DNA of 64,000 nt from Dyella sp. OK004. GTDB taxonomy: Bacteria > Pseudomonadota > Gammaproteobacteria > Xanthomonadales > Rhodanobacteraceae. The position numbers were made by a program, and so were the translations under genes. Shown piece after piece: positions 16,326-33,142 of the stretch. The first letter of the stretch is position 1; the number at the start of each line of letters is the position of its first letter. The stretch is taken from NCBI RefSeq assembly GCF_900114495.1, contig NZ_FOZI01000003.1, positions 496,001 to 560,000 of the forward strand, read 5' to 3'. The notes under the pieces are model-generated. The model ran no database searches and was not told the DNA's origin. It was given only the letters and a program-made list of their open reading frames with translations.

Positions 16326-16339
16326 TTGACCTCGATCAA
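16326..16339 (+). promoter_or_regulatory. FNR/FixK-type box upstream of Cyc2-like gene
   Basis: TTGACCTCGATCAA, differing from the FNR consensus TTGAT-N4-ATCAA at one position. A -10-like GAATCT lies at 16362-16367, 22 bases after the box, which is class II activator spacing. The start codon is at 16407. Confidence 0.75.
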
Positions 16340-16406
16340 CTTCGAGCCTTAGCCACAAGCGGAATCTCTTTCCATGCATGGGGCATGTTCGTGGGGAGAT
16401 ACTTCA

Positions 16407-17807
16407 ATGCGCCACAGCCGAGCGTTTGCGTATAGCGCGGGGTTGGTTGCCTGCTTTAGCTTGCTGACCTGGCTCGCGCTTATCGACACCGCGCGTGCTT
16501 TGCCGGCCTACGCAAGGCAGACCGGGCAAGCCTGCGTGGCCTGTCACGTGAGCTTTCCTGAGCTGACGCCTTACGGCCGCATGTTCAAACTCAGCGGCTA
16601 CACCATCGGCAAACGGCAGGAACTGCCACTGGCGATGATGGCGCAGTTCGGCGTCACCAGTGTGAGCAACAACAAGGATGACCAGGGCCAGAAGATCGTT
16701 CCCAAAACCAACCAGCCGGTGCTTTCCGCCGCGAGCGTATTCGCGGCCGGCAAGATCACCGACAACATCGGTGGCTGGATCCAGTGGACCTATAACAATC
16801 TCGCGACAAATAGTGCTGGCGGCACGGTAGGCCATAGCGGCATCGACAACACCGACCTGCGCATCGTCGGCCGCTCGGAGAACACCGACCAGACCGATAT
16901 GCGCTGGCTCTACGGCCTCACTATTCACAACAACCCTACCGTGCAGGATGTGTGGAACAGCACGCCGGCATTCGGCTTTCCCTTCACCGTGCCGCCCAAT
17001 GGCATTGGCGCAGCTGCCGCCACCATGCTCGATGGCGCGCTGGCTCAGCAGGTCGCCGGTGTGGGCGGCTACGTCTATTGGAACCGCAGCGTGTACGTGG
17101 AGCTGACCGGCTATCAGACGGCCGATGGCTTCTTCTCACCACTGCGTGCTGGCCAAGACATTCATTCCCCGGGCGGTGTGCATCGCCTTAGTGGCGTGAA
17201 CCCTTACTGGCGCGTGGCCTATAACCGCGAATGGGGTTTCAACTCGCTGATGGTCGGTGCCTATGGCGCGCAGTTCCGGCTGTACCCCGACAACACCACG
17301 CCATTCACCCCAACCGATCGCTTCACCGACATCGCGGTCGATGCGCAATTCCAGCACATCAGCGATCCGCACACCTACACCTTCCAGTTCACGCGGATCC
17401 ACGAGAAACAGGACTACCACGCAAGCTATCCCGCCACCCTGACTGGATCGCCGATCGGCGCTGGGCCAACGCCGGCGAATGCCCATGACACGTTGACCAC
17501 CGATAAATTCAAGGCCACCTATTACTTCAGGCGAAAGTACGGCGCATCGCTGGCGCTGTTTCGAACCCATGGAACGACCGATGCGGGTCTATACGGGCCA
17601 GGCTCGGTAGGTGGGAGTGCCAACGGCAGTCCAAATACGAACGGTTATATCGTCGAGCTGGATTATCTGCCGCTGCAAAACCTGCGCCTGATGCTGCAGT
17701 ACTACGGTTACGGGAAATTCAACGGCTCGCGCAGCAACTACGATGGTTCAGGGCGCCGGGCCAGTGACAACAACACGGTATTCGCCAATGTGTGGCTGGT
17801 GTACTGA
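16407..17807 (+). CDS. Cyc2-like fused monohaem cytochrome-porin
   Basis: Predicted outer-membrane protein of 466 residues that couples a single haem to a beta-barrel. A signal peptide (about 1-31) is followed by LPAYARQTGQACVACH, with the haem motif CVACH at 43-47, then FPELTPYGRMFKLSGY. This block matches the conserved N-terminus of Cyc2 iron oxidases (ARQTG, CxxCH, P.L...GR.FK..GY). The rest, about 390 residues, is alternating aromatic/polar sequence ending in NTVFANVWLVY, as expected for a porin barrel with a terminal aromatic residue. ATG 16407 is chosen over 16374 because ggggag precedes it and the signal peptide fits. A c4-type cytochrome follows 40 bases later, the same pairing as Cyc2-Cyc1. 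Iron oxidation is an inference; other extracellular electron donors are possible. Confidence 0.75.
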   Translation: MRHSRAFAYSAGLVACFSLLTWLALIDTARALPAYARQTGQACVACHVSFPELTPYGRMFKLSGYTIGKRQELPLAMMAQFGVTSVSNNKDDQGQKIVPKTNQPVLSAASVFAAGKITDNIGGWIQWTYNNLATNSAGGTVGHSGIDNTDLRIVGRSENTDQTDMRWLYGLTIHNNPTVQDVWNSTPAFGFPFTVPPNGIGAAAATMLDGALAQQVAGVGGYVYWNRSVYVELTGYQTADGFFSPLRAGQDIHSPGGVHRLSGVNPYWRVAYNREWGFNSLMVGAYGAQFRLYPDNTTPFTPTDRFTDIAVDAQFQHISDPHTYTFQFTRIHEKQDYHASYPATLTGSPIGAGPTPANAHDTLTTDKFKATYYFRRKYGASLALFRTHGTTDAGLYGPGSVGGSANGSPNTNGYIVELDYLPLQNLRLMLQYYGYGKFNGSRSNYDGSGRRASDNNTVFANVWLVY

Positions 17808-17847
17808 CATGCACAGCTCAGATGCGAAATCCAAGCGAGGACACGTC

Positions 17848-18471
17848 ATGACTCGTATCAACGTGCTGCACCTGGGGATATGCATCCTGCTGCCATGTGT
17901 GATCGCGACCGCAGCCAGCGCCCAGTCGACTGCGGCCAGCGATGACGCGGCCACCAAGCTGGCAAGCCAGGTCTGTTCGAGCTGCCATGGTCCCGGCGGC
18001 CATAGCGTGTCGCCTACCTTCCCTAAACTGGCCGCACAGCAACAAGCCTATCTCGTGGCTCAGATACAGGCGTTCAAGAGCGGTGGACGCAGCGAGCAAG
18101 AGGCGCACGACTATATGCTCGGCATGACCACGCTGATCGACGACGACACGGCAGCCGCTCTTGCGCGCTACTTCGCCAGGCAATCCCCGCCACATGGGGT
18201 CAGCTCAGATCCCGCGCTGGTGGCTGCCGGGCAAAAACTGTTTACCCAAGGCATCGGCGATCGTGTGGTGGCTTGCGCCAGCTGCCACGGTGACCATGCC
18301 CAAGGCAATGGCATCTTTCCTCGCCTGGCGGGGCAGCACGCGCCCTACATCGTGCGTCAGCTCAAGGTGATCCAGGGGAATCTGCGTAACTCACCAGTGA
18401 TGCACGGCATCATCAAGAATCTCACCCCGGAAGAAATGAATGAGGTCGCGGCCTATCTGCAATCGTTGTAG
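17848..18471 (+). CDS. Dihaem cytochrome c4-type protein
   Basis: Periplasmic dihaem cytochrome of 207 residues. The signal peptide ends near ASAQS (about 25). Two cytochrome c domains carry CSSCHG (43-47) and CASCHG (143-147); FPKLAAQQQAY and FPRLAGQHAPY show the internal duplication typical of c4. Methionine ligands are likely in the MLGM and SPVMHG segments. ATG 17848 has gcgagg seven bases upstream; ATG 17809 is an alternative. c4 cytochromes carry electrons between periplasmic donors and terminal oxidases, so this would accept electrons from the Cyc2-like protein. Probably co-transcribed with it. Confidence 0.88.
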   Translation: MTRINVLHLGICILLPCVIATAASAQSTAASDDAATKLASQVCSSCHGPGGHSVSPTFPKLAAQQQAYLVAQIQAFKSGGRSEQEAHDYMLGMTTLIDDDTAAALARYFARQSPPHGVSSDPALVAAGQKLFTQGIGDRVVACASCHGDHAQGNGIFPRLAGQHAPYIVRQLKVIQGNLRNSPVMHGIIKNLTPEEMNEVAAYLQSL

Positions 18472-22805: not shown

Positions 22806-24233
22806 ATGAGTCACGCAACGGAAGCTCCCCGCAAAACCCGGAACATCACTTATAGCTGCCATGGTGCGGCGAAACAGGTAACGGGTTCGTGCCACCTGGT
22901 CACCTGCAACGGACGGCGCATATTGATCGACTGTGGACTGTTCCAGGGCGGCGCTGAGCAAGAGCGGGCCAATTACCAGCCCTTTGGCTTCGATCCGGCC
23001 AGTATCGATGCGCTTCTGCTTACGCACGCGCATCTGGATCACTGCGGCCGCATTCCGCGGCTGGTGCGCGAAGGGTTTCGCGGGCCGATTTTCACCACCG
23101 CGGCAACGCGGGAACTGGCGCGCGTCGTGCTCATCGATGCCGCCGGCCTGCAGGAAGAGGCGGCACGGCGCCAGCAACGCAGCGCACGTCGCCGCGACGA
23201 GCCGAAGATGGAGCCGCTGTATACACTCGATGACGCTTTCCACGCGCTTGAGTTCTTCACCGGCGACGTGCGCTACGGCGACTGGGTGGCCGTCACGCAG
23301 GGCATCCACGCTCAGTTTCTGGACGCCGGCCATATCCTCGGCTCCGCCTCCATTCTGCTTGAACTCGGTGATGGCGAAGACACTTGCCGAATGGTGTTCT
23401 CCGGCGACCTGGGTAGCCCCGGGCGCCCCATCCTGCGCGATCCCGCGCCCGCACCGGACGCCGATTACGTGGTGATGGAAACGACCTATGGCGACCGTCC
23501 GCACCGTCCCTTGCCCGATTCAGTGGATGAACTGCATCAAGCCGTGCGCCAGACCATCGAGCGCCATGGCAACGTGATCATTCCCACCTTTGCGCTGGAA
23601 CGCGCACAGGACGTGCTCTATTACCTTCACCGGGGCATAGAGGACGGCGCCATCCCCTCGCATATCCCCATCTTCCTCGACTCGCCGATGGCGGTTTCCG
23701 CCACCGAGATCTTTCGCCGCCACCCGGAGTGTTTTGGCGAGAACTTCGTCAAGGAGCTGCAAAGCGGCGACCCGTTCGCCATGCCGGGGCTGCACTTCAC
23801 GCGGGAGTCCGCCGAATCGATGGCGATCAACCATATCGAAGGCGGGGCCATCATTCTGGCGGGCTCGGGGATGTGCAATGGCGGCCGCGTCCAACACCAC
23901 CTCAAACACAACCTGTGGCGTGACAAGAGCAGCATCGTCTTTGTCGGCTATGCGGCCGAAGGCACGCTCGCCCGGCGCATCATCGATGGTGCGCCAAGCG
24001 TCCGGATATTCAACGATGAGATCCGCGTGCGCGCGCAAATCTGGACCATCAATGGTTTCTCGGCGCATGCCGATCAGGGATCGCTGCTTGCCTGGCTGGG
24101 CCATCGCCATCCGCGCAAAGTGTTTCTCGTACACGGCGAATACAACCGCGGCATGAAGGCCATGGAGCAATGCCTGACTGATCGCGGCATCGCCAGCCAG
24201 ATACCCGCCATCCACGAATCCATCCCCCTCTGA
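22806..24233 (+). CDS. Beta-CASP metallo-RNase
   Basis: 475-residue metallo-beta-lactamase/beta-CASP protein of the Ysh1/CPSF73-like bacterial group. Motif 2 is THAHLDHCGRIPRL (HxHxDH); later metal ligands are in DAGHILGSAS and FSGDLG. The beta-CASP cap carries ETTYGDRPHR, PTFALERAQDVLYYL and SGMCNGGRVQHHL, and the C-terminus has GFSAHADQGSLLAWL and VFLVHGEYN. These proteins process or degrade RNA. A nuclease embedded in a stress operon with Usp and acetyltransferase genes suggests controlled RNA turnover under oxygen limitation, which is inference. Confidence 0.9.
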   Translation: MSHATEAPRKTRNITYSCHGAAKQVTGSCHLVTCNGRRILIDCGLFQGGAEQERANYQPFGFDPASIDALLLTHAHLDHCGRIPRLVREGFRGPIFTTAATRELARVVLIDAAGLQEEAARRQQRSARRRDEPKMEPLYTLDDAFHALEFFTGDVRYGDWVAVTQGIHAQFLDAGHILGSASILLELGDGEDTCRMVFSGDLGSPGRPILRDPAPAPDADYVVMETTYGDRPHRPLPDSVDELHQAVRQTIERHGNVIIPTFALERAQDVLYYLHRGIEDGAIPSHIPIFLDSPMAVSATEIFRRHPECFGENFVKELQSGDPFAMPGLHFTRESAESMAINHIEGGAIILAGSGMCNGGRVQHHLKHNLWRDKSSIVFVGYAAEGTLARRIIDGAPSVRIFNDEIRVRAQIWTINGFSAHADQGSLLAWLGHRHPRKVFLVHGEYNRGMKAMEQCLTDRGIASQIPAIHESIPL

Positions 24234-32419: not shown

Positions 32420-33142
32420 CTAGGCGCGCATTCCTGCCATGGCCCTCAGGCCGCTATCGTCCAGTACGTGGACTTCACGGCGCTCGACCGAGATCAGGCG
32501 AAGGTCATCCAACCGCGACATGACGCGGCTGACGGTTTCGTGCTTAAGCGCCAGGAAATTCGCCATGTCCGTGCGGCGCATGCGCAGCATGAAATGACGG
32601 GCGCTGTAACCCAATTGCGCATAGCGCTTGGCGACGTCGAGCAGGAAACTCGCCACGCGCTGCTCGGCATTCAACGTGCCAATCGCCAGCATCCAGGCGT
32701 GGTCGTCGCGGATCTCCTGCGCCAGGGCCGCGGTCAGGCGTGCCTGTAGCTCGGGAATCTCCCGGCACGCAGTAAGCATTGCGGGATAAGGGAGTTCCCA
32801 GGCCTCGCCGGATTCCAGAGAAACGACACCGCAAGCGTAGGTTTTCAGCCCGATGGACTCGGCGCCCAAAAAGTCGCCGCGCATACGGAAGCCGGTGACC
32901 TGGTCGCGTCCGTCGTCCGCCAGCTCAACCGTTTTCAGGAACCCCGAGTTGATCAGGTACAGCGACTGGAAAGGCTGGCCGGCGTGATAGAGATATTGCC
33001 CGGCGGAAAGCTTGTGGCGAAGTACCGGCACGTACTTGCGTAGCAGATCGATATCGATGTCGGTGAATCCGGCTTCATGCTCAGTTGCCGGATAGCGGGC
33101 GGTCGGCGCCCGGGTTGAAGCAACTGTAGTCTGCATGATCAT
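32420..33142 (-). CDS. FNR/FixK-type Crp-family regulator without Fe-S cysteines
   Basis: 240-residue Crp/Fnr protein. cAMP-type sensor barrel (about 25-145; LSAGQYLYHAGQPFQSLYLI, RDQVTGFRMRGDFLG), dimer helix, and a DNA-binding helix-turn-helix with LALKHETVSRVMSRL. The E..SR of this helix matches FNR (ETISR) and predicts TTGAT half-sites, exactly those found nearby. The N-terminus has no cysteines, and the FNR Cys122 position reads EAWELPY, so it cannot hold a 4Fe-4S cluster like FNR or Anr. Only two other Cys are present (ACGV, ACRE). It is therefore FixK- or Dnr-like. The start is taken at 33142 with ggggtg upstream; ATG 33136 is possible. Confidence 0.87.
   Translation of the reverse strand: MIMQTTVASTRAPTARYPATEHEAGFTDIDIDLLRKYVPVLRHKLSAGQYLYHAGQPFQSLYLINSGFLKTVELADDGRDQVTGFRMRGDFLGAESIGLKTYACGVVSLESGEAWELPYPAMLTACREIPELQARLTAALAQEIRDDHAWMLAIGTLNAEQRVASFLLDVAKRYAQLGYSARHFMLRMRRTDMANFLALKHETVSRVMSRLDDLRLISVERREVHVLDDSGLRAMAGMRA

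Follow-up and report, generated by a model that had tools for sequence, protein, structure and literature searches.

Two adjacent genes of Dyella sp. OK004, one encoding a porin-like protein with a heme-binding motif and the other a c-type cytochrome, raise the question of whether this bacterium takes up electrons from outside the cell, from which donor and under which conditions. They lie within the 64,000-nucleotide stretch of DNA analyzed here (the window; G000:C3:496001-560000 of a 4.96-Mb genome in 8 contigs). According to excerpts of PMC8406198, the gene for Cyc2 serves to mark iron oxidation by microbes, an activity for which biochemical evidence exists for one protein of each of Clusters 1-3, and many Cyc2 homologs occur in bacteria not known to oxidize iron, where their function is unverified.

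A preliminary description of the locus had placed an open reading frame containing ALPAYARQTGQACVACHVSFPELTPYGRMFKLSGY at this site, and both were found there. The first gene (16407..17807, forward strand) encodes a protein of 466 residues from an ATG at 16407, preceded by a Shine-Dalgarno-like GGGGAGA at 16393-16399, and carries exactly one CxxCH, near its N-terminus. A signal-like helix (residues 2-24 of the structural model) is followed by ARA at residues 29-31 and by an N-terminal heme segment (residues 32-70; 16500..16616, forward strand; CxxCH at 43-47) delineated from the sequence, the published consensus and the model, from which we infer both the attachment of the heme and its position. 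No significant Pfam or NCBIfam model was matched by the protein (best Pfam value, 0.2), and just one of 69 aligned relatives touched any Pfam family at E 0.01. Base composition around the two genes showed nothing unusual.

To place the porin-cytochrome among its relatives, homologs were gathered from 31 of 81 near genomes, 45 of 274 genomes of the class and 88 of 398 of the phylum that had a match, together with 9 plasmid records and the best 80 of 563 confirmed named candidates. The resulting set comprised 179 proteins, all 179 with exactly one CxxCH, a count that is partly built in since the collection pattern demanded at least one. Two named loci (L097 and L106) yielded no protein under this pattern and stand outside the tree and the counts; of the other 78, two had too little downstream and three too little upstream sequence. 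A tree was built from 99 of the 179 proteins, picked for spread (IQ-TREE, LG+C20), and the window protein fell in a 35-row clade (98/85) nested in an 80-row clade (99/99) that also contains L215, the Cyc2 of a rusticyanin operon in the gammaproteobacterium G341, used here as the Cluster 2 reference. Rhodanobacter sp. OK091 adjoins the window protein (85% over 421 columns), and the nearest named relatives of the gene among the best 80 of 563 candidates are from Rhodanobacter and Dyella, in line with the Xanthomonadales-type host proposed earlier. The window protein aligned with L215 from end to end (34% identity, 4e-75), and residues of the loop after strand 5 (N175-x-P177-x3-D181) and of the C-terminal NYDGxGR segment, both conserved among its relatives, are common to the two proteins. 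As read from translations, the operon of L215 runs cyc2 - cupredoxin-like - coxB - coxA - small membrane protein - ctaA - ctaB - rusticyanin; its rusticyanin matched TIGR03095 at 1e-39 with 137 bits (cut-off 146.7), the best of the genomes matched, in a scan where 15 of 52 genomes gave any match and none exceeded the cut-off. Within this tree of collected relatives, the position near L215 points tentatively to Cluster 2.

Outside the 80-row clade stood a group with ARKY-type motifs and a group of another class, family f208, which was the source of 65 of the 88 matching genomes in the phylum scan and would correspond to the Mariprofundaceae, with Cluster 1 and Cluster 3 copies; the tree program warned that two of the outside long-branch groups may join falsely. 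The window protein shares its N-terminal heme motif and single heme with the putative Cluster 1 proteins (Mariprofundus type, of neutrophilic iron oxidizers), but these form a separate clade (100/100) and the only meaningful BLASTP stretch between the two covered residues 28-73 around the heme.

Measured against the features set out for Cyc2 by Keffer 2021, the porin-cytochrome is longer than the minimum of at least 365 residues, has its single CxxCH near the N-terminus, carries the PXL motif just after it (CVACH-VSF-PEL) and is predicted to form a barrel of 16 strands. Its N-terminus had been read as that of a Cyc2 protein; the heme motif and PxL bear this out, but the strict motif AXPXFAR[Q/K][T/Y] is missed by one letter (ALPAYARQT, with Y for F). 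F occupies that position in the rows closest to the window protein, L058 and L059, and L215 itself departs from the consensus at another letter (ARQL). The strict motif was present in 23 of the 35 clade rows and 124 of the 179 homologs; allowing Y raised these counts to 33 and 158, respectively, with 34 of the 179, the window protein included, fitting only then. A published screen, as described in part of PMC8406198, applied the strict motif; by its stated rules it would drop the window protein, which may thus not be represented in the tree published with it. Given this one-letter departure, we named the protein a Cyc2-type cytochrome-porin by descent and architecture. Tree and alignments together support common descent with Cyc2, as had been proposed, and no placement outside the family was encountered.

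The fold was predicted with AlphaFold2 from an input alignment of the porin-cytochrome and 68 relatives (68 of the 78 proteins from named loci), yielding a model with a mean pLDDT of 91.7 and a pTM of 0.86, with residues 29-34 below a pLDDT of 50. DSSP assigned to this model barrel strands at residues 75-86, 105-116, 121-134, 140-158, 165-174, 216-225, 229-238 and 265-276 (strands 1-8), and 279-292, 304-318, 322-336, 360-374, 378-389, 411-423, 426-438 and 457-465 (strands 9-16). Foldseek comparison of the model with the PDB returned OmpF-type porins at the top (E about 1e-9; TM about 0.46 by query and 0.6 by target) and AlgE within the top 50 matches; a sequence profile searched against solved structures found no significant relative. 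The protein is thus predicted to form a 16-strand outer-membrane barrel (residues 75-466; 16629..17804, forward strand), consistent with the barrel that had been anticipated.

The second gene (17848..18471, forward strand) begins 40 bp past the stop codon of the first and encodes a protein of 207 residues with two CxxCH motifs. The description of this gene as a c4-type diheme cytochrome was borne out by its length, of the order of 200 residues, and by its similarity to c4 structures in the PDB, namely 1h1o (3.2e-34, residues 32-207), 6q2u (1.7e-27) and 1etp (7.7e-27); Pfam Cytochrom_C was matched over two stretches (3.5e-20). The first of these structures, labeled cytochrome c-552 in the PDB table, we take to be the c4 of Acidithiobacillus ferrooxidans. 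Co-transcription of the two genes is what we infer from their arrangement. A c4-like neighbor, defined as an ORF starting at most 450 bp downstream of cyc2 on the same strand, accompanied 33 of the 35 rows of the window's clade, and the two exceptions both have a same-strand c4 upstream of cyc2, immediately adjacent in L082 and at a distance of about 1.8 kb in L033. Such a neighbor was also present at 65 of 76 named loci (from the best 80 of 563 candidates) and at 10 of 45 rows in the remainder of the 80-row clade. Adjacent c4 genes were found in none of the 8 rows of group B, none of the 5 rows of group C, to which a paralog from the window genome itself belongs, and none of the 3 testable putative Cluster 1 rows. 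Nor did the ORFs read in the L215 operon include a c4 beside Cyc2; the c4 link is therefore to Acidithiobacillus as in print, and not to L215. The genome holds two other long matches to this c4 (37% and 35%) and four shorter ones, making the cyc2-linked c4 one of several; it may be a dedicated copy.

The locus had also been described as being under FNR-type control, and a strict FNR-type box (TTGACCTCGATCAA; TTGAY-N4-RTCAA) is indeed present at 16326..16339, centered 74.5 bp ahead of the start codon (16407); a search of its vicinity gave no sigma-70-like promoter. When 300 bp upstream of cyc2 were searched across the collected loci, the strict box occurred in 46 of 173 regions vs. a mean of 0.2 (maximum 2) in 30 Markov resamples, and in front of 18 of 1373 other ORFs of at least 250 residues from the same loci, a rough comparison set in which antisense ORFs are included. 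With the letters reversed the count was 0 of 173, two scrambled palindromes gave 0 and 0, and a separate set with a span of up to 430 bp had the box in 38 of 104 loci. Crp control was rejected, TGTGA-N6-TCACA occurring in 3 of 173 upstream regions vs. 46 for the FNR box. The box is absent from 127 of the 173 loci, including 21 of the 35 in the window's own clade; by group, it was found in 14 of 35 rows of that clade, 7 of 8 of group B, 0 of 5 of group C, 1 of 9 of the ARKY group and 0 of 9 of the putative zeta groups. Mapped as a label onto the tree (29 of 97 rows), it required 20 changes, indicating that the boxes are scattered and not one inherited site. Same-family relatives assigned to group B (L041-L052) had the box in 11 of 12 cases and no c4 nearby.

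An FNR homolog encoded outside the window (G000:C6) has a CX2CX5C cluster (GCSGCAHAATC) and is thus presumably of the Fe-S type; it scored 146 bits with NF008365 (cut-off 228). One candidate regulator is a Crp/Fnr-family protein encoded closer by (32420..33139, reverse strand; NF008365 138.7 bits, cut-off 228), in which no N-terminal cysteine cluster was seen. In the literature searched we found no report tying cyc2 to FNR-type oxygen control: FNR in the excerpts of PMC8125076 denotes ferredoxin-NADP oxidoreductase, and the mentions in the available portions of PMC7236192 and PMC5506826 are reference titles. Expression of the cyc2-c4 pair is probably turned on by a shortage of oxygen.

The box upstream of cyc2 does not stand alone. 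All nine strict FNR boxes of the window lie within 20 kb (16326-36476), compared to a mean of 0.18 per window (maximum 2) in 50 Markov shuffles. They are located before cyc2, between the NRAMP and SDR genes (two boxes), before a GNAT acetyltransferase gene, and before genes for a flavodoxin-like protein, a CBS protein, a universal stress protein, adhP and a second CBS protein, several of these neighbors being named from a reading of their translations. This segment is a putative low-oxygen stress island, whose genes include those for universal stress, CBS, beta-CASP, AdhP and ribonucleotide-reductase-like proteins. The beta-CASP protein (22806-24233) gave 373 bits with a type VII Cas14 model (cut-off 800); as this is far under the cut-off, a CRISPR reading was discarded in favor of a beta-CASP RNase relative. 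A conserved link to the NRAMP metal transporter was likewise discarded, such a gene lying within 9 kb of cyc2 in just 3 of 117 loci. At least two of the window's neighbors (25-44% identity) were found within 9 kb of cyc2 in only five of the 117 loci (L060, L061, L064, L078 and L080), making the window's setting an occasional one.

Outer-membrane electron transfer at low oxygen is the best reading of the cyc2-c4 pair. On balance we favor, with some confidence, a Cyc2-like conduit that moves electrons through the outer membrane, with Fe(II) as its most likely donor, c4 as acceptor and FNR-type control at low oxygen. The 16-strand barrel would carry its short one-heme (c-type) segment at the periplasmic end. 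The heme would be reduced by a small donor that enters the pore in reduced form, most likely Fe(II) in solution, and the periplasmic c4 from the adjacent gene would accept the electron and hand it on to the inner-membrane respiratory chain. The presence of c4 directly after a Cyc2-type pore suggests this order (outside donor, Cyc2 heme, c4, respiratory chain); the inward direction of flow, and an acceptor beyond c4, are presumed. At neutral pH, Fe(II) is stable only at low oxygen, and FNR-type control, which would confine expression of the pair to conditions under which Fe(II) persists, therefore fits Fe(II) as the donor, a plausible assignment. As for terminal acceptors, the genome encodes two heme-copper oxidases and one bd oxidase. 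A cbb3 oxidase was rejected, as no ccoN exceeded the cut-off (one 27-bit match, cut-off 583, at a heme-copper oxidase), and so was nitrate via NarG, for which the genome gave no match.

The most serious alternative retains the cytochrome-porin and exchanges its substrate: the protein would be fed by a different small donor or by an electrode, or would serve as an outward redox valve that releases electrons via its heme at low oxygen. We regard this as rather unlikely, though well worth weighing. Among the matches listed (best 80 of 563 candidates), relatives occur in Pseudomonas fluorescens, Ralstonia pickettii, Burkholderia and Chromobacterium. These are organotrophs. The names of the genes around cyc2 moreover bring to mind a locus for survival at low oxygen, and Keffer et al., in the excerpted text of PMC8406198, allow for additional functions and call for verification of distant homologs. 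Conversely, the loop-5 and NYDG residues held in common with the Cyc2 of a rusticyanin operon, and a c4 next in order, of the class of Cyc1 (PMC10654088, in part), argue against this alternative. A second alternative, a low-oxygen stress porin whose heme serves structure or sensing and conveys no respiratory electrons, appears improbable: it draws on the universal stress, CBS-domain and AdhP genes that share the box-rich stretch and on the 8 of 8 group B rows lacking an adjacent c4, but the c4-like neighbor in 33 of 35 clade rows, and the monoheme cytochrome c that follows the cyc2-type gene in the 5 rows examined of the paralog's group, would be difficult to account for if no electrons were transferred. 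That the protein is a common porin unconnected with Cyc2 whose CxxCH arose by chance, a reading to which the lack of a Pfam or NCBIfam family and the one-letter motif departure might point, is very improbable, being contradicted by the tree, by the full-length alignment with L215 and by the single CxxCH in all homologs, partly built in as that count is.

Returning to the favored conduit for Fe(II), comparison with known systems brings out what it shares with each. With L215 (Cluster 2 by print) the window protein has in common full-length homology and one N-terminal heme; the differences are that the window genome gave no match to rusticyanin (TIGR03095), that no cox genes are among the neighbors read, and that the window has an FNR-type box, an FNR-box-rich stretch and Y for F in the motif. 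In Acidithiobacillus, according to part of PMC10654088, cyc2 is followed by the c4 Cyc1, with rusticyanin between the two in the electron path; the window likewise has c4 directly after its cyc2-type gene. Bradyrhizobium has, per excerpts of PMC5566968, a Cyc2 cluster with HiPIP and Cyc1/CycA1-like cytochromes, which resembles the window in setting Cyc2 beside Cyc1-class cytochromes and differs from it in that the neighbors read in the window include no HiPIP and a single cytochrome follows. A Caballeronia plasmid (L032) has a HiPIP gene upstream of its cyc2-c4 pair. Lastly, the low-oxygen-activated lxa locus of Burkholderia cenocepacia (PMC6127331 and PMC3759415, in part) resembles the island by gene names, with a universal stress protein, a Zn-alcohol dehydrogenase and a metallo-beta-lactamase-fold protein in one numbered series; it differs in that the excerpts of PMC6127331 list a small cytochrome c (M0284) and no cytochrome-porin.

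Cyc2 homologs in Rhodanobacter are already in print: they are reported for the Rhodanobacter of culture KS in excerpts of PMC5566968, and homologs of both Cyc2 and Cyc1 in Rhodanobacteraceae in those of PMC10654088. Excerpts of PMC11366258 report a Rhodanobacter isolated from culture KS as unable to oxidize Fe(II) by itself, which would count against the favored reading, and call the Rhodanobacter of that study's own culture an iron oxidizer. The less expected part is the recurrent FNR box together with the neighboring c4, which predicts specifically that such pairs are expressed and used at low oxygen; this is open to test in the easily grown Rhodanobacter, Dyella and Pseudomonas fluorescens. 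More tentatively, and with somewhat less than even confidence, FNR-controlled Cyc2-c4 couplets could be a widespread facultative low-oxygen module for electron uptake from outside in organotrophic Proteobacteria. If so, ordinary bacteria of soil and water, and not specialists alone, would use iron oxidation or extracellular electron uptake conditionally, to survive under micro-oxic conditions, and the window genome would run cyc2-c4 beside a box-less Cyc2-type paralog with its own monoheme cytochrome. The recurrent box with its c4 also advises caution in taking every Cyc2 match as a sign of iron lithotrophy.

The paralog in question (G000:C1:23361-24725; L054:8314-9729) has no FNR box and is followed by a monoheme cytochrome c gene and a 292-residue ORF; a monoheme cytochrome c came next in all five rows examined of its group, group C. 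Five sampled congeners held no copy of the porin-cytochrome at 70% identity or above (best 40%), and the cyc2-c4 couplet is thus patchy. In the Cyc2-type gene of G013 (L053, also L019) the match was split over two separate ORFs, so that the gene looks split or decayed. Carriage by viruses was rejected, as no relative was confirmed among viral contigs and no match was found in phages. Plasmid-borne Cyc2-type genes of Acidithiobacillus ferrooxidans YQ-N3 (L035), where a transposase lies beside the gene, and of Acidiphilium cryptum (hit H6) had the same match statistics; plasmid transfer of Cyc2-type genes between these two acidophile genera is possible.
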